Part shown: positions 48,558 through 59,634 of the stretch, in pieces | Position numbering within the stretch: position 1 is the first letter of the stretch | Layout of the letters: the number at the start of each line of letters is the position of its first letter | DNA from: an uncultured Desulfobacterales bacterium | GTDB taxonomy: Bacteria; Desulfobacterota; Desulfobacteria; Desulfobacterales; JAHEIW01 | Reading direction: 5' to 3' | Length of the DNA stretch: 64,000 nucleotides | Assembly: GCA_947259495.1 (NCBI GenBank) | Contig: CAMYLV010000004.1 | Coordinates: 62,001 to 126,000 of the forward strand | Made by a program: the position numbers and the translations under genes | Notes under the pieces: generated by a model | Told to the model about the DNA's origin: nothing | Databases searched by the model: none | What the model saw: the letters and a program-made list of their open reading frames with translations, nothing else

Positions 48558-51500
48558 ATGCTGCGCAGCATGAAAATAATTGTCGGTTTTCTTACCATCA
48601 GTTCGATATGGCTGCTACCGGTGATTTTACCGGAGGTTGCGGCCCAGCAGACTGCAACGCCACCTTCAACGGGAGCTCAATCAGCAGCTATAACCATTGA
48701 AGAACTGAAATCCAGGCGCATTGCAATCGAAAATATAGCGGGTATCGATGCCACGCTTAAAGATGCCAGTCTGAAATATATTGACGGGGCGATACAGTAT
48801 TTAGGGCTGGCCGACAGTACCACTAAAGAGACAAACGAGCTCTCAAAGCTCATCCAGACAGCGCCCGAGCGGTTGAAAAAATTGCAGGCCGAGCTAAAAA
48901 AGCCGTTCATTGCACCGGAAAAAGTCAAAGCGCGTGCGCAGCAAATGAGCATATCAAAACTCGAACAGCGCGTGCGCCAGAAGAAAGCCGAACACGCGAC
49001 GGCACAAAACAGGCTGAGGGAATGGAGCGATCGTTTAACGGCGCAGAACAACATCATCAGCCAAATGCCCGCAAAGCTTGCGACCGCAGCCAGCCGGCTC
49101 AATGAGATTCAAACGGAGCTGGCAACCCTGACAGGTGTTACCGAAGCCGATATCGGCAACTATGCCAGGATGTTCAGCCTCAAGTCGGAACGGGAAAAAT
49201 TAACAGCCGAAATCAAATTAAACGAGCTGCGCCATGGCAGCCATAATCTGCTCGTAGAATTGTTCAGCAAGGAGCGAGATGTCGCCCAGAAAGCAGTTGA
49301 AGGCAGAGAAATAATGTTAAAAAGCTGGCAGGCTGAAGCTCAGAAACGTCGCCAGCAGGAGGCCGTTCAGGCCCGGGAAGAAGCCCAGGATGCCATCGTC
49401 GAGGTTCCCCTGCAGCCAAAGATTGTCCAGGATCAGTTTGACATCAACATTCAACTGAGTACCGAGCTGGAATCAGTCATCCGGGAAGAAACAATTTTGG
49501 CCGGAAAATATGCAGATTATCAAGCGCGTCTAAAAGCGCTGGAAGTGGAATTTGACACAGCCAAAAAGAGAATTGAATCAGCCGTGTTAACCGAGGCGAT
49601 CGGATTGGCGCTGCGCGCTCAGCGCCTGAACCTGCCCCGTGTTGATCGGTATCTGGCGGATTCCGATGCCCGCCAGATCAGAATGAGCGAAATCAGCGAA
49701 AAGCAAATCGAGTTGGATCGCATGCTGCGTGAACTATCCGACCCTAAGGCTCAGGCAGACGCTGTGATCGGTTCCGTCAGCTTTCTTTCGGAGATCGACC
49801 GGGATTCACTCGATTTGAAAATTCAGGAATTGTTCGCCAATCGCCTCGATGTCATTCAAAAATTGGAAACCGCCTACGACCGAATCTTCAAATTGATAAA
49901 CGATATTGAATTCACCGAACAAAAACTGGTCAACACTGCCAAAGACTTTGGTGAACTACTCGATCGCCATCTGTTCTGGATTCGCAGCTCCAAGCGCATC
50001 GGTATTAGCGACATCCAGAAGCTGCAAGTCTCCCTGGGATGGTTTTTCAAACCGGATTCCTGGGGCCAATTGTTCAAGGATCTGGGCCAATCCTTCCGTC
50101 GGCAGACAGCCGTCTGGATTATCGGTTTGCTGATCGGTTTGTTTCTGATCGTCAGTCGCAGGTGGGCTAAAAGAAAACTGAAGGATATCGCTGACTGCGT
50201 CGAGCAGCAGGTGGAGGATTCCTTTCTGCTGACGATTAAAGCCCTGGGGCTGACGGTATTGCTGGCCGCTGTCTGGCCTTTTCTGCTGGCATTTCCGGCC
50301 ATTCAACTGACAAGTCTGCGCCAGGCAGACCCTTTCAGTACGGGCATTGCCGGTGGCCTGATCTATGTTATACGTCCCCTGATATTTATGGTCCTGTTCT
50401 ACCATATCTGCCGACAATACGGTCTGGCCCCGACACACTTTCAATGGCCGGAGTCAGCCCGCCGTACCTTGAAGCGCAACCTGGGCTGGCTGATCCCGAT
50501 CGTAGCGTTGACCTCCTTTTTCCTGGGAGCGATGACAACCGTGCCTCAATTCGAATACAGCGATGCGCTCGCCAAATTAGCCTTCATCATCCAGGCCTTG
50601 GCCAATTCCATGTTCTTCGCGCGCATCCTGAGATTCAGGGGCGGCATCACATCCGTGTTGATCGAAAAACACCCCAATAGCTTGCTGTGCCGCCTGCGAT
50701 ACGTCTGGTATCCTCTGACGATCCTGCTGCCGCTTTTTATGCTCTATCTGGCGGTGATCGGTTACTATTATTCCGCATTCGAAATACGCAACCTGTTCCG
50801 CGATACCACAATGCTGTTACTGGTTTTGCTTGTCTTCAACGATCTAGTGCTGCGTTTGCTGATGCTGGTGCGCCGCAGGATTGCGATAAAAAAAGCCATC
50901 GTAAATCAGGAGCTGCATCTTGAAACGGCCTCAGACACCGAAGCGGTTGCCGGTGACGGCGAGCGGTCCTTGCAAATGGAAACCATTGTCGAAATGAGCA
51001 AAATTGACGAGCAAACCCGGAAGTTTTTGAAACTGGTTTTGTTCATCCTGGCGCTGGTAGGAATCTGGGCAATCTGGGAGCCCGTTTTTCCGGCGTTCGG
51101 CATTCTGCAGGATATCGAGTTTTGGAGTTACAGCACGGAGGTAGACGGTGTTGTCAAATCGGTCCCCATCACCCTGGCCAACATTATCATGGCAATTATT
51201 GTAACCGTGACAACGATTATTGCCGGCCGCAACCTGCCGGGATTGCTGGAAGTTATTTTGTTGAATCGTTTGCCGATGGACCCCGGCGCGCGATATGCCT
51301 ACTCAAGCGTCAGCCGATACGCGATAACGGCAATCGGTATCATTATTGCTTTCAATACGATCGGTTTCAAATGGGGCAATTTGCAGTGGCTGGTAGCGGC
51401 CCTGAGTGTCGGCATCGGTTTCGGGTTGCAGGAAATTGTGGCAAACTTTATCTGCGGCTTGATCGTCCTGTTCGAGCGACCCTTCAGAGTCGGTGATACG

Positions 51501-52031
51501 GTCACCATCGGCGACGTCAGCGGAACCGTGGCACGCATCCGCATCCGGGCAACGACGATCATTGACTGGGACCGCAAGGAATTGATCGTCCCCAACAAAG
51601 AGTTTGTTGTCGGCCGCCTAATCAACTGGTCGCTTTCGGACAAATATATCCGCATTCGGATACCGGTGGGAATCGCTTATGGATCCGATACCCAATTGGC
51701 CACCGAACTGCTTGTGCAGGCGGCCCGTAAAAATTCGCGGGTTCTCCCCAAACCTGCTCCAGATGCCATCTTCAAAGGCTTTGGCGACAACAGTTTGAAC
51801 TTTGAACTGCGGGTATATATCGACGGCATTGATGACTGGTGGCCGATGCAGCATGATTTGAACATTACGATTGATAACACATTCAAAGAAGCGGGGGTGA
51901 CGATTGCCTTTCCGCAGCGCGATGTGCATCTGGATGCAACCGGCCCGCTGGAGGTCCGGGTGGTTTCAGAGCCATCCGGCTTTAAGACCACTAAACCCTC
52001 GTTTGGGACACCAAAAGATCAGGACGCATAA
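48558..52031 (+). CDS. MscK-like large mechanosensitive channel
   Basis: A 1157-residue MscS-superfamily protein. Residues 1-29 are a signal peptide, about 40-440 a periplasmic coiled-coil domain, and about 520-900 many transmembrane helices. The pore and beta domain are at about 935-1040: 'NLQWLVAALSVGIGFGLQEIVANFICGLIVLFERPFRVGDTVTIGDVSGTVARIRIRATTIIDWDRKELIVPNKEFV', the classic MscS signature. The C-terminal alpha/beta part follows. It opens on membrane tension to release solutes in hypo-osmotic shock. The start has GGAGGCGAG upstream. Length and architecture match MscK/YjeP-type rather than small MscS. Confidence 0.92.
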   Translation: MLRSMKIIVGFLTISSIWLLPVILPEVAAQQTATPPSTGAQSAAITIEELKSRRIAIENIAGIDATLKDASLKYIDGAIQYLGLADSTTKETNELSKLIQTAPERLKKLQAELKKPFIAPEKVKARAQQMSISKLEQRVRQKKAEHATAQNRLREWSDRLTAQNNIISQMPAKLATAASRLNEIQTELATLTGVTEADIGNYARMFSLKSEREKLTAEIKLNELRHGSHNLLVELFSKERDVAQKAVEGREIMLKSWQAEAQKRRQQEAVQAREEAQDAIVEVPLQPKIVQDQFDINIQLSTELESVIREETILAGKYADYQARLKALEVEFDTAKKRIESAVLTEAIGLALRAQRLNLPRVDRYLADSDARQIRMSEISEKQIELDRMLRELSDPKAQADAVIGSVSFLSEIDRDSLDLKIQELFANRLDVIQKLETAYDRIFKLINDIEFTEQKLVNTAKDFGELLDRHLFWIRSSKRIGISDIQKLQVSLGWFFKPDSWGQLFKDLGQSFRRQTAVWIIGLLIGLFLIVSRRWAKRKLKDIADCVEQQVEDSFLLTIKALGLTVLLAAVWPFLLAFPAIQLTSLRQADPFSTGIAGGLIYVIRPLIFMVLFYHICRQYGLAPTHFQWPESARRTLKRNLGWLIPIVALTSFFLGAMTTVPQFEYSDALAKLAFIIQALANSMFFARILRFRGGITSVLIEKHPNSLLCRLRYVWYPLTILLPLFMLYLAVIGYYYSAFEIRNLFRDTTMLLLVLLVFNDLVLRLLMLVRRRIAIKKAIVNQELHLETASDTEAVAGDGERSLQMETIVEMSKIDEQTRKFLKLVLFILALVGIWAIWEPVFPAFGILQDIEFWSYSTEVDGVVKSVPITLANIIMAIIVTVTTIIAGRNLPGLLEVILLNRLPMDPGARYAYSSVSRYAITAIGIIIAFNTIGFKWGNLQWLVAALSVGIGFGLQEIVANFICGLIVLFERPFRVGDTVTIGDVSGTVARIRIRATTIIDWDRKELIVPNKEFVVGRLINWSLSDKYIRIRIPVGIAYGSDTQLATELLVQAARKNSRVLPKPAPDAIFKGFGDNSLNFELRVYIDGIDDWWPMQHDLNITIDNTFKEAGVTIAFPQRDVHLDATGPLEVRVVSEPSGFKTTKPSFGTPKDQDA

Positions 52032-52210: not shown

Positions 52211-55200
52211 TTACTGCTGCATCCAGGTTCGGACTCTTACCTTTTTGTCAGGCAAATTTACTTTTTTAGCGAAAAAATCCTCTTCATCGTTGCCGCTGCC
52301 ACCACCGTCATCACCGTCACCGGTAACCGTGATAAACAGGGTGTCCTTGTGCAGCACCGGATGCGAGCCCTGGCCGCGACCCACCTTGATACCGATGGGT
52401 ACAACATCCTTGACTCCATCCCCATCGATATCCACTTTATCGTCATCGTTGAACTTGCCGTCGTTGTTAATATCAAATACCGGATCCATTGCTGCCAGGC
52501 CCGTGCGATAATCGACAGCAAACACCCAGGTATCGCCACTGCCGGCACATACGTCTTCGTCCGGTATAAAGGTGGTGAAAAATACGATACCGGCCACTGC
52601 CAGCGGTTGGGTGATCACACGTTCGCTTCCGGAAGGAGCCGCCTCGTTCCAGCCCCAGCCCGCCTGATTGGCAAAAAGCTGCATTTTCCAGGGATCATTG
52701 AACGCGTTGGTCCCGTCAATATAGCGAAAAGTGACATCCTTACCGCCGATGGTCTCGGTGCTAAATTTAGCCTGCAGCAAAACCGGATCGTTCAGATGAT
52801 AGGTAGCTGCCGGGGTGGTGCCGTCTTTCAGGCCGAAGAAATACTGCTGGTTATTATCGGTTTTATCGGCCTGGGTTTCGTATATCCCCGAACCAAAGTA
52901 AACCCAGATCTCCCCGGGCGCATAAGTATAGGCAAAATCGGCTTTGGCCCGAATGGGATTCACATTCGGTGACGCGTTGCCATAGGTAAACAAGGTGGAT
53001 ACTGTCGGTGTCATGTGTTTGCCAATATCATCAATGCGATACATGTTGCCGTAAAGATCACCGGCATAAATCCGGTCGGAGATATAATCGCCTTCCAAAT
53101 CCGCGGCCAGCGGCGATGCCAGGGCATTATTGAGCAGGCTGCCGCCGTTGGTCGGCACACCATCCAGGTCAGCCGGATAAGGTGGAGACGCAACAGCACT
53201 TTCGAGCCTCTCGTCGGCCTGGAAGGTACCGACCGCATTGGTAAGGGTCAACGTGGCTGTATTACCAACGATATTGTTAATGGCAACAACTTTAGCCGTG
53301 GCACCGGAGTCAAAACCGGTAATGGTTTCACCCACACTAAATGGATTTCCTCCGTGGTCGTAGTTTACGATATTAGCGGTCAGATCATTGCCGCTGCTCA
53401 TCTTGATGCGATTGGTGGTATTGCCGCCGGAATCCTTCCAGTAGTCAGCCGCATCATGGGCCACGATACCGAAAAGGTAGGCCTCTTTAGTGGCCTGCTG
53501 GGCCGGCAGGTAACCGGAGCCAAAAAAGGTTCCCCAGTCCTTATCCGAACTGTCTTTTACAGCAGTGCGACTGATACTGGGGTCCGCCCAGGTTTGACCC
53601 AGCTCGCTGTCGGTAAACTCCCATAAATATAGTGTCGGATCGCCGGCATCAAAATTTTTGCCAGAGGTGATATCAAGTGCAAAATAGGCCTCACCGCCTT
53701 CGCGTTCCCCGACTACCAGCATGGTGCGCCATTCTTTGGTACTGTTGCCGTCAAAGTCCGCATAGACATCACCCACCACCGGCGTACCATCCACGTAATA
53801 CTGATGGCAGTATTCCGGGGCACAACGGTCATACAGCGGATCGGAATCGGCCAGATTCAATTTGGCATGCATGCTTTTGGGAATAAAGGCCCACTGCTCC
53901 ACACCGTCGACCAGCCGGATGGCATGCAGGGAACCGTCATTGGCCCCGATATAGATCATGGTGTCCCGGGGGGTGGTGTGGGCCATATCGTATGCAAAAC
54001 GGATGTAGTTATCAAACGGATACCAGAAGGGCGGGGATCCCACCACCACCGGAGTGGAGTTGACAACGTCACCGATGGGTTTGGTGCTTACATTACAGGC
54101 AAAATTGTCCGTTGCCAGGGTCCCTTCCGTATAGGCGGCAAAATTGTCACTGGCATCAACGGTCCAGAGGCTGCGGGTGACCGGCAGATTATCGCTGGCG
54201 GCCCAAACCGAACTGACCCACAAGCCGTTGCTGTCTTTGGTTATCGCCTCCACATCACCTATCCAGCGGGCGGCATCGAATTTTGCCAGAATGACGGTAT
54301 CTCCCAGATCAACCGAGGTGGTCGGTGCCGGGGCCGAACCATGAAACACCTTCCCTTTGATGCTTTCCGTAATGGCGGTCATAGCGTCAATCAGCTCCTG
54401 TTTGCTGTAGGCGAAAAAGGGCTGACCCACGCCGGCTAATTCTTCGTGCAGGGCAAAAACATCATCGGTCTGAGAAACATTACCTTTTTCGTTAGCAACC
54501 TTGGCCATTTCATAGATCTGCTCGGCCTGATCGGGCGGCAATCCGAAACCCACCGCAATCGGTGTTATCTCCTCATCGGCCAGAGCGGCGGTATTGGTGT
54601 TTACACCGGCGGTGGTGGAATTGAGGTTGCCGATACCGTCGGTGATATTGATCAAAAACTTCGGCTGACACTCGGAATTGACATAGGTGTCACCGGTTGT
54701 GCCTTGATCTTCGTCTTCGGGTTTGGCGCCTGTAAAATATTTACGGGCCGCTTCGATCGAAGGTGCAAACGGGGTGTTGCCCGTAGCTGTCAGGGCATTG
54801 ACGGCATCTTCGATGGCCGTCTGGTGAGCCGCAGTATGGGGTTTGGTGCCTTCATGTACGATGGTGTAATCTGGCACGCCGTCATACGGGTCACGATCGC
54901 CGACCCAGCTGCCGAAACCCCAGGATATGGCGCGGTCTCTGATCAGATCGATGATGGTGGATTTGGCAATGTCAATTTTGGGTTCCATGGTACCGCCGCC
55001 CCATTCGGGAATGGCGGTCCAATGAACCTCAGCGCTGGTTCGCGTGCGGCCGGAAATATTATCATCCAAATTCGCAAACGTCGGGGGGTTGTCCATGTCC
55101 TGCCCCGATATTTTTAGATTCGTGGTTACGCTGTCAGTCTCGTCGACAACGAATTCCACGTAGGCTGCGGTGATGGTGGCCCCCTGCGGGATGGACAGAT

Positions 55201-57139
55201 TCTGAAAACGGATGCCGATGACCTGCTCGCCATTGCCCTCGTCATCGACCATCTCCAGGTCGGCACTGGTCAGATGCACCGAGGTTTGGCCGATTTTTTC
55301 TTCACCGTCATCAGTACTCTGGGATACGCGCACATCGATTTCATGGTCGCTGCCGTCGTTGTAAGCCACATGCAACAGGGGTGCAAAGCCGGAGTTTTGA
55401 TCATAGGAAACCGCCGTCCGTCGGCCGAGAACACCGTTGCTTTCGATAATAAAGGCCATGGCGTTACCCGGCGCCCAACCCGCTCGATCGACAATCTCCT
55501 GCACGATGGGACTCAGATCCGGGGTGCGGGGCTTGTCTATATTGGGGCTGACATTGATCTGATTGTTCATACTGCCGGAGACATCCAATAGAATCATAAC
55601 CGCCGGGCTGATGATATTTTCGGCATACACCGGTACGTGCCCGCAACTGTATGTTTGATCCTGCTCGAGAACCGTCACGCTGACGGTGATTTCCACCGGA
55701 CTGTTGGGCGCGCCCGGTGCGGTGATCGTAATCTTATCGGTATAGGTGCCGATGGCAAGTCCCGATGTGTTGTAGTTGATCGTAATGGTTTCATCGTCAC
55801 CGGGTAGCAGGTTGCCGCCGGTTGAGGAAATCGAAAACCAGCTTGAATTTTCTGATAAAGTATAGTTCATGCTGCCCGAACCGGAATTGGTAATCGTAAG
55901 GCTGTCGGCCGGGGCATTTTGGGTTTCAAAACAGGAGGTACCGATGGTGTTGGTGTCGGTGGTGATGTGGGGATTGTTGGCCGTATCCCATTCGATGTGT
56001 AAAATAGCGGCCTTGCTGGAATCGGTATCAAAACTGTAGGCACAGCGCCAGCCTTGTCCTTGATTAAAAATAAAGGCCATGGCATTACCGCTGAACCAGC
56101 CCGGCCGGCCGATAATCTCCTGCACAATGGCACTTAGGTCCGGTGTGCGATAGGCGACATCTTTGTCCCAGTCGGGCACGGGGTCCCAGGTGACACTCTG
56201 ACCGGACAGGGAGCGGGTGCTCAGGTCATTTGGCGTAGAGCTAAATGCTGGTGCATGATTGTTGGCTTCGGTCTTTATGACCATGGTGGAAGCGCCGCTG
56301 CTGGTGGCCGCACCTTCGTTGTGGGCCACAACTTCAATAAAGGCCTTGGTAATCTGAACACCCTGGGGTACGGTCACATTCTGGAAACGAATACCGGTTC
56401 CCCGGTCGGTGGCGTTGAAAAAATCCAGGTCCGGACTGGTGATGTACATATTGCCGTCGGCTCTTTCCTCGGCGTCGTCACTGGAATCAGAGACCTGAAG
56501 GGTGATGGCATCGGCGACATATTCGATATGCAGCAAAGGCGCCACATCCTCACCGTTTTCGCTGGCCCATCTGAAAGCGCGGGCTATACGCTCGCCACTG
56601 CCATCGATGATGAAGGTCAGCGGATCTCCTTCTTCCCAGCTGATTCTATCCACAAGCTCCTGAACAATTGCGCTCAGGTCCGGCGTCTGCTGCGCCACAC
56701 CGGTCTCGCCGACCTGGCCCCACGGGGGCACGTTATTCCAGGTAACGGCATTAAAGGTCTTGGCCCGGGACGCAATGTCCTGAACTATAAAATCCGGTGT
56801 ATCCGGATACCAGTAATTACTGTGGCCCCAGATGGTGAGGTTGGTTGTGAGGGTTGTTGCTTGATCAACCGTGAATTGAATATAGGCATTGGTAATGGTC
56901 GAATATTGGGGAATGGTCACATTCTGAAAGCGAATGCCGCATAATTTGTCGCCCAGCTCCAGGTCATTGATATAAGTTGACACGCCCCCGGTTTGTTCGG
57001 CATCATCTGCGAGCTGAATGACCCGGGTTTCAAAGGTTCCGGAAGTGGCGCCGGAAACCTGTAGGGGTATGGCGAGCATGACACATATAAATGCTGCCAG
57101 TATGATATATCCATTTTTATTGTGTTTGTGTTCCATCAT
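52211..57139 (-). CDS. pilY1: PilY1-like type IV pilus tip/assembly protein with nested domain
   Basis: A 1642-residue secreted protein, longer than usual PilY1 (about 1000-1200). Residues 1-30 are a signal peptide. Two beta-sandwich units follow (about 34-207 and 212-385; each has 'GIRFQNVTVPQ' and 'TPDLSAIVQEI'), then a BACON-like immunoglobulin domain (about 388-495). A von Willebrand A domain starts at 'VMILLDVSGSMNN' (MIDAS Asp about 519) but is interrupted at about 535-711 by a third beta-sandwich unit in permuted order. The vWA resumes at 'MEPKIDIAKSTII'. The C-terminal PilY1 beta-propeller has 'IYIGANDGSLHAIRLVDGVEQWAFIP' and the calcium-type loop 'DINNDGKFNDDDKVDIDGDG'. It is the last gene of the minor-pilin operon. 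Confidence 0.9.
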   Translation of the reverse strand: MMEHKHNKNGYIILAAFICVMLAIPLQVSGATSGTFETRVIQLADDAEQTGGVSTYINDLELGDKLCGIRFQNVTIPQYSTITNAYIQFTVDQATTLTTNLTIWGHSNYWYPDTPDFIVQDIASRAKTFNAVTWNNVPPWGQVGETGVAQQTPDLSAIVQELVDRISWEEGDPLTFIIDGSGERIARAFRWASENGEDVAPLLHIEYVADAITLQVSDSSDDAEERADGNMYITSPDLDFFNATDRGTGIRFQNVTVPQGVQITKAFIEVVAHNEGAATSSGASTMVIKTEANNHAPAFSSTPNDLSTRSLSGQSVTWDPVPDWDKDVAYRTPDLSAIVQEIIGRPGWFSGNAMAFIFNQGQGWRCAYSFDTDSSKAAILHIEWDTANNPHITTDTNTIGTSCFETQNAPADSLTITNSGSGSMNYTLSENSSWFSISSTGGNLLPGDDETITINYNTSGLAIGTYTDKITITAPGAPNSPVEITVSVTVLEQDQTYSCGHVPVYAENIISPAVMILLDVSGSMNNQINVSPNIDKPRTPDLSPIVQEIVDRAGWAPGNAMAFIIESNGVLGRRTAVSYDQNSGFAPLLHVAYNDGSDHEIDVRVSQSTDDGEEKIGQTSVHLTSADLEMVDDEGNGEQVIGIRFQNLSIPQGATITAAYVEFVVDETDSVTTNLKISGQDMDNPPTFANLDDNISGRTRTSAEVHWTAIPEWGGGTMEPKIDIAKSTIIDLIRDRAISWGFGSWVGDRDPYDGVPDYTIVHEGTKPHTAAHQTAIEDAVNALTATGNTPFAPSIEAARKYFTGAKPEDEDQGTTGDTYVNSECQPKFLINITDGIGNLNSTTAGVNTNTAALADEEITPIAVGFGLPPDQAEQIYEMAKVANEKGNVSQTDDVFALHEELAGVGQPFFAYSKQELIDAMTAITESIKGKVFHGSAPAPTTSVDLGDTVILAKFDAARWIGDVEAITKDSNGLWVSSVWAASDNLPVTRSLWTVDASDNFAAYTEGTLATDNFACNVSTKPIGDVVNSTPVVVGSPPFWYPFDNYIRFAYDMAHTTPRDTMIYIGANDGSLHAIRLVDGVEQWAFIPKSMHAKLNLADSDPLYDRCAPEYCHQYYVDGTPVVGDVYADFDGNSTKEWRTMLVVGEREGGEAYFALDITSGKNFDAGDPTLYLWEFTDSELGQTWADPSISRTAVKDSSDKDWGTFFGSGYLPAQQATKEAYLFGIVAHDAADYWKDSGGNTTNRIKMSSGNDLTANIVNYDHGGNPFSVGETITGFDSGATAKVVAINNIVGNTATLTLTNAVGTFQADERLESAVASPPYPADLDGVPTNGGSLLNNALASPLAADLEGDYISDRIYAGDLYGNMYRIDDIGKHMTPTVSTLFTYGNASPNVNPIRAKADFAYTYAPGEIWVYFGSGIYETQADKTDNNQQYFFGLKDGTTPAATYHLNDPVLLQAKFSTETIGGKDVTFRYIDGTNAFNDPWKMQLFANQAGWGWNEAAPSGSERVITQPLAVAGIVFFTTFIPDEDVCAGSGDTWVFAVDYRTGLAAMDPVFDINNDGKFNDDDKVDIDGDGVKDVVPIGIKVGRGQGSHPVLHKDTLFITVTGDGDDGGGSGNDEEDFFAKKVNLPDKKVRVRTWMQQ

Positions 57140-57267: not shown

Positions 57268-57774
57268 TTAATACCCGACCTTAAAAATCTTTGACACTCT
57301 GACATCAATTTGCTGGGCCTGGTTGGCATTGGATCTGGTATCATAAAAAAACTCCCGGAATTCCGGCCCGCTGCCGGCAACAACGCCGTCAGAGACGTAT
57401 TGAACCTGATACCAGTATGGAACGCCATATTGGCTCAGGGTGGTGTTGTCCGGAATCAGGACGCTGAGATCCGCGGGTGCCGGGTCGGCCGGAGATGTAC
57501 CGAATCCGTAATTCTTGACAATGTTATCCGCATTGGGATTGACGGCTGCGGGTGCACCGGCCGCATTGTCCAACCACATCGCACCTTCTTTCCAGCCGCT
57601 GTCGGCAATATAAAAATCGATCTGGTAGCGATGCTCGTTTCCGATTATCTGTGATTCGAAAATACTCGTTTGGGTGGCCGCTACCCCGATAATCGTTAAG
57701 GTTACCAGCAGCAATAAAGCGACGATGATTACCGAGCCCCTGTCATTTTTTAAAATTAATTTGGCTGATACCAT
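57268..57774 (-). CDS. pilX: PilX-like minor pilin assembly protein
   Basis: A 168-residue protein starting at ATG 57774 (AAAAGGATTG upstream). The N-terminus 'DRGSVIIVALLLLVTLTIIGVAATQTSIFESQIIGNEHRYQIDFYIADSG' is the PilX pattern: a type IV pilin-like helix with a Gly before the hydrophobic stretch and the EAxxN-like 'NEHRYQIDFYIADSGWKEG' region. It primes pilus assembly together with PilVW and PilY1 in the inner membrane. It lies 128 bases upstream of pilY1 and 58 bases downstream of pilV. Confidence 0.85.
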   Translation of the reverse strand: MVSAKLILKNDRGSVIIVALLLLVTLTIIGVAATQTSIFESQIIGNEHRYQIDFYIADSGWKEGAMWLDNAAGAPAAVNPNADNIVKNYGFGTSPADPAPADLSVLIPDNTTLSQYGVPYWYQVQYVSDGVVAGSGPEFREFFYDTRSNANQAQQIDVRVSKIFKVGY

Positions 57775-57832
57775 AGTACTCAATCCTTTTCGTTTTTCTC
57801 TGAGTGTGGCTTTAGCCCGCCGAATTCTTAAC

Positions 57833-58300
57833 CTACATATTTGCTTTGACAAAATCGAAAGAGGCCCGTCTCTGTCCTCCGGCGGTTCGAATCGCGACAA
57901 CCCGCACCGATTTGGTCCCCGGCAGCGGAGTGTCATCGACGACGGTCCAGCTTATCGTAATATGCCCTGTTTCTCCGGCTTCATCGATTTGACCGTCTTC
58001 GTCGTTATCAATCCGATCGGCGTTTGTTGCGGGTGCATAATTTGTTCCCGGAGCAGCAGAGCCCACCAAATTGACATCATCATAGGGCAATGCCATCAGT
58101 TCTTCTGCACGATCCTTGGCAATCGTAATTACGGTTGTTGAATTTCTGGAATTGGCATTGTTGGTGATCGCCGAAATTTGCATGGAACTGACCGCCAGGA
58201 AACCAATGGCAAATATCGCAATGGCAATCATGACTTCAATGATGGTAAAACCCCGGTCATCAGATCTGTTTTCATTTTGAAATACCTTCTTAGCAAGCAT
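57833..58300 (-). CDS. pilV: PilV-type minor prepilin
   Basis: A 155-residue prepilin. The ATG at 58300 has GAAGGAG upstream. The type III signal 'DDRGFTIIEVMIAIAIFAIGFLAVSSMQ' has the prepilin peptidase site after RG and Glu5. The C-terminal 'GHITISWTVVDDTPLPGTKSVRVVAIRTAGGQRRASFDFVKANM' fits PilV. It also has a DNDEDGQIDE stretch that could bind calcium. It is processed by PilD and joins the minor-pilin tip complex. Confidence 0.88.
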   Translation of the reverse strand: MLAKKVFQNENRSDDRGFTIIEVMIAIAIFAIGFLAVSSMQISAITNNANSRNSTTVITIAKDRAEELMALPYDDVNLVGSAAPGTNYAPATNADRIDNDEDGQIDEAGETGHITISWTVVDDTPLPGTKSVRVVAIRTAGGQRRASFDFVKANM

Positions 58301-58320
58301 CTTTATGCTCCTTCTCAAGA

Positions 58321-59100
58321 TTACAAATTGCGACAAAGAATTTCCGATGATAAAACAATGCGCCGAAAGCGGTCATTTTGTGCCGGAAGGATGACAGCCC
58401 CCTGTTGATTCGTGTAATTTTTGTCGTCTGTTTCATTGTTTGGCAGCGCATACCGGGCAGTTTCACCGGCCCGGGCCACGGTCGTAATTTGAACCGATCG
58501 AATGTTTGCTAGCTGTCCAGCCGGCACGCTCGGCGGGGTCAAGCCGTAATCGATCAAATCAACGCCGTTTTGATTAAGATAGACAAAGTTGAGTGCATCG
58601 ATATTTTGCGAAATATCGGCCGACTGCATGGCTGCCCCATCCCAGTATCGTCGTTGCAGATTACAATTTAGGCCGTCGGCAATGCCGTCATTGTCTGCAT
58701 CGTTTGACAGGCGATAGGTGATCTGTTCGAGGTTATCGTTGACGTCGCCGTCCACGTTGGGCCGGCCGCGTTCGTCAAACTCATCTACTGCTGAATCGGA
58801 ATCGTCATCCAATCCATTGTGGATGTCCATGGTAAAGGTAATCGAACCGATCTGCGCAGATGTAATCTGGGGTACGCCGCTTTCCGTGGGATCATAGGCC
58901 GCCAGCCGGATTTCTCTTTCCATGGCGTAAATCGCCGCACGCGCATTTTGCTGCATCTCCACAACCTGTTGCTGGGTCACCTGAGATTTGAGCTGGGCCT
59001 GGTAAGTGGCATAGATGATGCCTAATACTATGGAGGATATCGCCATCGCCACCAAAAGCTCGACTAAGGTAAACCCGCCGTTTTTTCTACCAAAAATCAT
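58321..59100 (-). CDS. pilW: PilW-type minor prepilin
   Basis: A 259-residue prepilin with 'KNGGFTLVELLVAMAISSIVLGIIYATYQAQL' at the N-terminus, a PilD cleavage site after GG and Glu5. The following 'QQNARAAIYAMEREIRLAAYDPTESG' is characteristic of PilW. An acidic stretch 'DIHNGLDDDSDSAVDEFDERGRPNVDGDVND' looks like calcium-binding loops. It has 20 bases to pilV downstream and 21 from the FimT-like gene upstream, consistent with one operon. Confidence 0.9.
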   Translation of the reverse strand: MIFGRKNGGFTLVELLVAMAISSIVLGIIYATYQAQLKSQVTQQQVVEMQQNARAAIYAMEREIRLAAYDPTESGVPQITSAQIGSITFTMDIHNGLDDDSDSAVDEFDERGRPNVDGDVNDNLEQITYRLSNDADNDGIADGLNCNLQRRYWDGAAMQSADISQNIDALNFVYLNQNGVDLIDYGLTPPSVPAGQLANIRSVQITTVARAGETARYALPNNETDDKNYTNQQGAVILPAQNDRFRRIVLSSEILCRNL

Positions 59101-59121: not shown

Positions 59122-59634
59122 TTAACCGAGCTGATTGATATTAACGCTGCCAGCCGGCGAAATATTAATTCGGGTCTGTCGGTTATTGTTTCTTAGAAAA
59201 ACGGTTCCCGCTGCCAGTGAGCCGGTATTATTCAGACAAAAGCCATTGGGCGCAAAGGCAATCGCATTGTTGGGATTGGAAAATATCAATCCGTTTACGC
59301 CTTGAGCCGTATTAAGGGATACCCCCGGATATTCCGACCAGTTCACCGTGCGCACAACCTGTTCGCCGGCATCGAGCGTTAAATCCTGGTCATCGTCAAT
59401 AAAGACCGAATAATTACCGGCAACTGTGTCAAACGTAATTGCGCAAAGCGCATTGTTTCGGGCTGCTTGAAGCTTTGCGCTTTGAAAATTGGAATACAGG
59501 TCTTGCGTGGCACGGCTTAACTGAGAGTTGTTGCGCCAGCGTATATAGTTGGGCACTGCAATGCTTGCCAGGACGGCGATAATACCGATCACCGTCAGCA
59601 GTTCCATCATTGAAAATCCATTTTTGTTTCGCAT
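59122..59634 (-). CDS. GspH/FimT-type minor prepilin
   Basis: A 170-residue prepilin, first gene of the minor-pilin operon, with GGAGAT upstream. 'MRNKNGFSMMELLTVIGIIAVLASIAVPNYIRWR' gives a short leader, a PilD site after NG and Glu5. The GspH-like body ('SNFQSAKLQAARNNALCAITFD ... FAPNGFCLNNTGSLAAGTVFLRNN') matches the FimT/FimU/GspH family. It likely sits at the pilus tip. Upstream DNA is AT-rich and carries composite repeat R6. Confidence 0.88.
   Translation of the reverse strand: MRNKNGFSMMELLTVIGIIAVLASIAVPNYIRWRNNSQLSRATQDLYSNFQSAKLQAARNNALCAITFDTVAGNYSVFIDDDQDLTLDAGEQVVRTVNWSEYPGVSLNTAQGVNGLIFSNPNNAIAFAPNGFCLNNTGSLAAGTVFLRNNNRQTRINISPAGSVNINQLG

Follow-up and report, generated by a model that had tools for sequence, protein, structure and literature searches.

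The third copy of a beta-sandwich domain in the PilY1 protein encoded in the window (the 64,000 nucleotides analysed here, from an uncultured Desulfobacterales bacterium) is circularly permuted, far beyond what chance would produce, and it splits the host vWA domain in the loop that leads from the DxSxS motif to helix 1. We consider the following reading as a whole probable: the protein is a predicted PilY1 tip adhesin, in which a permuted CBM-like module of early origin is nested in the vWA domain beside the MIDAS and has a role in glycan binding.

The pilY1 product is identified by a T4P_PilY1 match (PF05567) in the Pfam search, with 77.2 bits against the curated cutoff of 28.1, covering the beta-propeller, and by four minor-pilin genes (pilX, pilV, pilW and fimU/gspH types) situated directly upstream on the same strand; its location at the pilus tip is predicted. 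The sequence-only reading of this DNA had named the same gene. A large gene for an MscK/KefA-type mechanosensitive channel, 48558–52031 (+), is convergent with pilY1, with 180 bp between the ends. The window lies within a 193-kb contig; the genome has 4.4 Mb in 69 contigs.

Table 1. The pilY1 gene of the window, the parts of its predicted product and the adjoining minor-pilin genes (positions in the window)
Feature	Position	Strand	Remarks
pilY1, type IV pilus tip adhesin gene (predicted)	52211..57139	(-)	ORF of 1642 aa, open throughout; PF05567 match
Beta-sandwich copy 1	56519..57040	(-)	about aa 34–207; ordinary N–C order, profile matches N then C
Beta-sandwich copy 2	55988..56509	(-)	aa 211–384; ordinary N–C order, CBM-like fold model
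BACON/Ig-like domain	55721..55912	(-)	aa 410–473; PF19190, 26.9 bits (cutoff 25)
vWA part 1, strand 1 and MIDAS motif DVSGSM	55565..55657	(-)	aa 495–525; conserved front block
Nested permuted copy, C-half (first)	55361..55525	(-)	aa 539–593; model 118–173, 70 bits
Nested permuted copy, N-half (second)	55001..55342	(-)	aa 600–713; model 3–115, 129 bits
vWA part 2 from helix 1 (KIDIAKS), with MIDAS Thr and Asp	54242..54985	(-)	aa 719–966; PF00092 partial
PilY1 beta-propeller and C-terminus	52214..54076	(-)	aa 1022–1642; PF05567 in two stretches
pilX-type minor pilin	57268..57936	(-)	PF14341, 46.9 bits
pilV-type minor pilin	57833..58336	(-)	N_methyl, 35.8 bits; start codon uncertain
pilW-type minor pilin	58321..59100	(-)	N_methyl, 39 bits; PF16074 PilW, E 2.7e-5, slightly under cutoff
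fimU/gspH-type minor pilin	59122..59634	(-)	PF12019 GspH, 45.2 bits

The permuted third copy and its fold

In copies 1 and 2 the N-half (DDAEE..GIRFQN..VTWxxxPxW) precedes the C-half (TPDLS..LLHIEY). In copy 3 the C-half comes first, and the whole copy is placed between DVSGSM, ending at residue 525, and KIDIAKS at residue 721, so that the gap of about 194 residues between the motif and helix 1 is the third sandwich. The profile used to examine this order rests on 41 unpermuted domains from elsewhere, all in other genomes, the window sequence and all permuted copies being excluded. It matches the insert in two pieces in swapped order (Table 1), and the doubled insert yields a single contiguous match, model 3–173, of 199 bits, that is, the sum of the two half matches; the best of 2000 shuffled inserts scores 8.3 bits. 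The swapped order and the contiguous doubled match are seen in all 17 nested proteins that were compared (the one of the window and 16 others), with a common cut point at model 109–121. The linker joining the old domain ends in the permuted copies is 4–11 residues long, the same as between tandem copies. Over 81 nt the DNA of the permuted C-half shares 78% identity with copy 2 and 62% with copy 1. Thus the circular permutation and its nesting within the vWA domain, both noticed in the sequence-only reading, are confirmed, with its boundaries correct to within a few residues.

The model of copy 2 by itself reaches pLDDT 91.8 and pTM 0.89. Its best fold match is the chondroitin-sulfate-binding module 8WAB (Z 15.3, 160 aa, 3.1 A), which we take to be of the CBM100 type, and the second one is the alginate-binding module 7VBO (Z 12.6, 153 aa), presumably of the CBM96 type; TGF-beta-type prodomains follow with Z 9–11. 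Foldseek supports the match (E 2.6e-7). Hence the beta-sandwich, as modelled for the unpermuted copy, shares a CBM100/CBM96-like fold, although the identity to 8WAB and 7VBO is 14–15%, and 8WAB belongs to a chondroitinase rather than to a pilus protein. None of nine unpermuted domains reaches the Pfam cutoff of CBM96 (PF24517), the best E-value being 0.02 in one of them, and for this reason the domain is not filed as CBM96 despite the likeness of the fold. The only PDB sequence matches of the domain profile, designed beta-propellers aligned through a short stretch, were rejected as chance likeness.

Structure prediction, which had been suggested as a check, was informative for one part of the nested region. 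The insert folds as one sandwich with local pLDDT mostly 65–89, and the secondary-structure elements of the permuted model correspond to those of the copy 2 model after a circular shift, whereas the vWA part has pLDDT mostly below 50. When the whole 470-residue nested model was searched by fold, the matches were mixed and of middling strength, with Z 5.9 at best. This can be put down to the low quality of the vWA part and to aligners that keep to the order of the chain, and the result was not used as evidence for the fold.

The same domain is found also in RHS-like and purple-acid-phosphatase-like proteins. In the latter (L101 1378–5007 (-), L102 and L116) copies of the CBM-like domain are situated upstream of the phosphatase domain, and the C-terminus of L101 carries a true CBM96 and a dockerin.

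The host vWA domain and its inserts

The MIDAS residues D, S, S, T, D (D25, S27, S29, T295 and D340 of alignment A3) are invariant in all 17 nested sequences. When the vWA flanks of the window protein are joined in silico, the VWA_2 match lengthens from profile positions 1–14 to 1–93, and the Pfam VWA/VWA_2 scores rise from 14.4–17 bits in the split form to 20–21 bits, the cutoffs being 23.8 and 27. A natural empty-site homolog is slightly under the Pfam vWA cutoff too, with 23.2 bits. In the empty-site relatives SGSM is followed by a short loop and then by RIxIAED; one example is LDTSGSMDNKMDTDDGYMTRISIAED. As the vWA part of the model is unreliable, the placement of the module beside the MIDAS is known from its position in the chain only.

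A separate PilY1 subfamily (L103–L113, L119–L122, L145–L149), common across the phylum, shares with the window protein the domain family and the site after the MIDAS motif, but the nested domain retains the N–C order. It comes directly after DNSGSM, as in L103–L113, and is followed by a YYGYFDP block and, later in the chain, by the Thr and Asp that presumably complete the MIDAS. This subfamily is a clade of its own in the host tree (support 100). Other PilY1 proteins contain Golvesin_C (PF25275) in the vWA region (L028, nt 1–310, and L033, nt 200–590, both approximate), and two more (L127, L129) have different segments inserted in the same part of the domain. The region that follows the MIDAS motif in the PilY1 vWA therefore resembles a hot spot for insertions, which fits the published vWA inserts of ComC/PilY1 (PMC10374093) and CpaL (PMC12607857).

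Occurrence and history of the permuted layout

Comparison with orthologs, another check that had been suggested, found the permuted nesting in 18 genomes, that is, in 17 besides the window, at 40–60% protein identity. A single match spans the whole junction region in 14 of the 389 genomes of the order (window included), and one further genome of the phylum (G590) has the layout as well; it is also present in contigs named Desulfuromusa and Desulfocapsa, and in Desulfatibacillum, Candidatus Desulfatibia vada and other Desulfobacterales. A scan of the genome contigs with full-length PilY1 gave no matches, whereas the junction-region profile did find relatives. A contig from a 'Bacteroidales' bin with a related vWA (L082) was not counted, being 3.2 kb long, partial and possibly mis-binned. 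The insert is under purifying selection: in close pairs its dN/dS is 0.10–0.33, similar to that of the adjoining vWA, one of the two Desulfuromusa sequences (L077) being left out of the rate comparison for the vWA region owing to a frame break there.

The same order and junctions are found in two single-contig genomes of the order, G005 and G058. The pilY1 gene of G005 is complete across the junctions and has an N-gap further downstream. On contig 1 of this genome (L039, about 127 kb, and L040, about 1916 kb) pilY1 breaks off at a stretch of N, and 1.8 Mb away, beside another N run, its 3' part is present a second time in nearly identical form; this suggests either a scaffolding error or a gene copy that was split.

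The sequence-only reading had allowed for a misassembly at repeated domains, so that the order in the contig would differ from that in the cell. Three repeats within 2 kb, up to 78% identical in DNA, might indeed invite one, but they are too diverged to mislead an assembler, base composition is smooth across the region, and the 17 other assemblies agree in order and junctions. Since independently assembled orthologs, single-contig ones included, keep the order, misassembly is excluded for practical purposes. Insertion-free orthologs accompanied by breaks in coverage were to speak against the layout, and this is not the situation here: the empty-site relatives that do exist form one clade of the same subfamily. 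The same reading had proposed an adhesin innovation by unequal exchange, and of this the arrangement has proved real. A recent exchange or gene conversion among the copies of this gene, creating the permuted copy in this lineage, is a different matter: the tandem copies do sit in the same protein, and a C–N segment is the expected product, but the permuted N-half is 39.6% identical to copies of the same protein and 38.2% between species, and the respective values for the C-half are 56.1/51.1% and 55.2/48.2%. Moreover, the permuted copies are closer to one another (45.6% and 62.6%) than to any unpermuted class, and the layout is common to different families and classes. We regard a recent event as extremely improbable and exclude it, because copies within the protein are hardly more alike than copies of different species. 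It is also imaginable, with three copies in one chain, that the halves of the permuted copy are not one domain and instead pair, by strand or domain swapping, with halves from copies 1 and 2 or from a neighbouring molecule. This is very unlikely, as copies 1 and 2 are each complete alone, the linkers between the halves are short and fairly constant, and the model shows one sandwich. In the Desulfuromusa PilY1 proteins (L076, L077) the permuted copy is the sole one, and since they hold no other copy, the halves of the permuted copy most likely complete each other.

Sequence comparison thus places the permuted arrangement as an old one, common to a PilY1 subfamily. In the tree of the host protein, constructed with the insert removed, the nested and empty forms share a subfamily, and the empty clade branches within the nested grade (96/99). 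This points to a single gain and a single loss of the nested copy, an order that is favoured and not proven, because the AU test does not reject the nested form as one clade (p 0.158). In the empty-site relatives L093–L100 the two tandem sandwiches are replaced by an unrelated N-terminal domain ('YIEAEHF'), therefore the tandem copies are lost together with the nested one. The permuted domains as one clade are not rejected (p 0.492), nor are the permuted and unpermuted nested copies together (p 0.339), so that one of the two forms may derive from the other. A donor copy was sought through trees and identities of the separate halves, and neither singled out one copy.

A single origin of the permuted nesting by phase-shifted copying is likely. 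In one early event within the subfamily, a piece consisting of the C-half of one tandem copy, the linker and the N-half of the next copy would have been copied out of the tandem array into the loop between the MIDAS and helix 1. The old domain ends would thereby have become an internal linker, and a surface loop (W..|..TPDL) would have provided the new ends. Because the new ends are neighbours in one loop, the permuted module could sit in the vWA domain without breaking it.

Comparison with known systems and proposed role

With the PilY1/PilC/ComC tip adhesins (PF05567) the window protein shares the C-terminal propeller, the N-terminal vWA domain with the MIDAS and the adjoining minor-pilin genes; it differs in that the vWA domain is split by a permuted CBM-like module, with two unpermuted copies upstream. 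ComC variants of Acinetobacter have a finger-like, Tyr-rich insert in the vWA domain (PMC10374093). It is likewise a lineage-specific insert within the vWA of a tip adhesin, but the window protein has a complete permuted beta-sandwich there, and unpermuted paralogs of it elsewhere in the chain. The vWA domain of CpaL from Caulobacter is formed by two sequence sections flanking a beta-rich region, with the MIDAS kept (PMC12607857), as in the window PilY1. However, CpaL is a minor pilin of a Tad pilus, and its beta-rich region consists of two six-stranded barrels that have no known relatives. Hence inserts in pilus vWA domains are already known, whereas a circularly permuted one is apparently new: we found no description of it in a literature search that mostly lay outside subscription papers, which is weak evidence.

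The nested module most likely serves glycan recognition at the pilus tip near the metal site, by analogy with its closest folds. It probably projects beside this site and offers an extra binding surface; it would recognise a polysaccharide, and the vWA domain with its MIDAS would provide metal-dependent or force-sensitive adhesion. Type 4 pili of Streptococcus sanguinis are reported to have a complex of minor pilins that binds glycans (PMC9934059), and PilY1 has been proposed as a likely adhesin of sulfate reducers in syntrophic consortia (PMC10553843). Alternatively, the insert could be a spacer or mechanical element without a ligand, widening or stiffening the tip, with the permutation selectively neutral. 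Consistent with that, the insert may be missing, as in the empty clade, the other subfamily has the unpermuted form at the same site, so the topology is not essential, and the other vWA inserts with Golvesin_C are wholly different. However, the closest folds of the module are glycan-binding, and the purifying selection on it is comparable to that on the vWA domain, so that we find a mere spacer rather unlikely.

A bolder version of the glycan-binding reading treats the loop after the MIDAS as a docking site for one and the same CBM-like module, taken up by two PilY1 subfamilies in different topologies, ordinary and circularly permuted. In that case the permutation would be adaptive, turning another glycan-binding face toward or away from the metal site and coupling sugar binding to the MIDAS or to force sensing. 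This is possible, if doubtful.

Because Pfam does not contain the module, routine annotation misses the layout; the split vWA domain, scoring below the Pfam cutoff, adds to this blind spot. Here a natural permutation can be compared with its unpermuted paralogs within one protein, with empty-site homologs and with an unpermuted insert that occupies the same place in the host domain. Such sets are rare, and this one allows one to test whether selection acts on the topology of a domain inserted near the MIDAS. The module may also provide sulfate reducers and their relatives with a surface for glycan recognition at the pilus tip, and if the docking site with two topologies is true, permutation would be a means of coupling sugar binding to the MIDAS or to force sensing.
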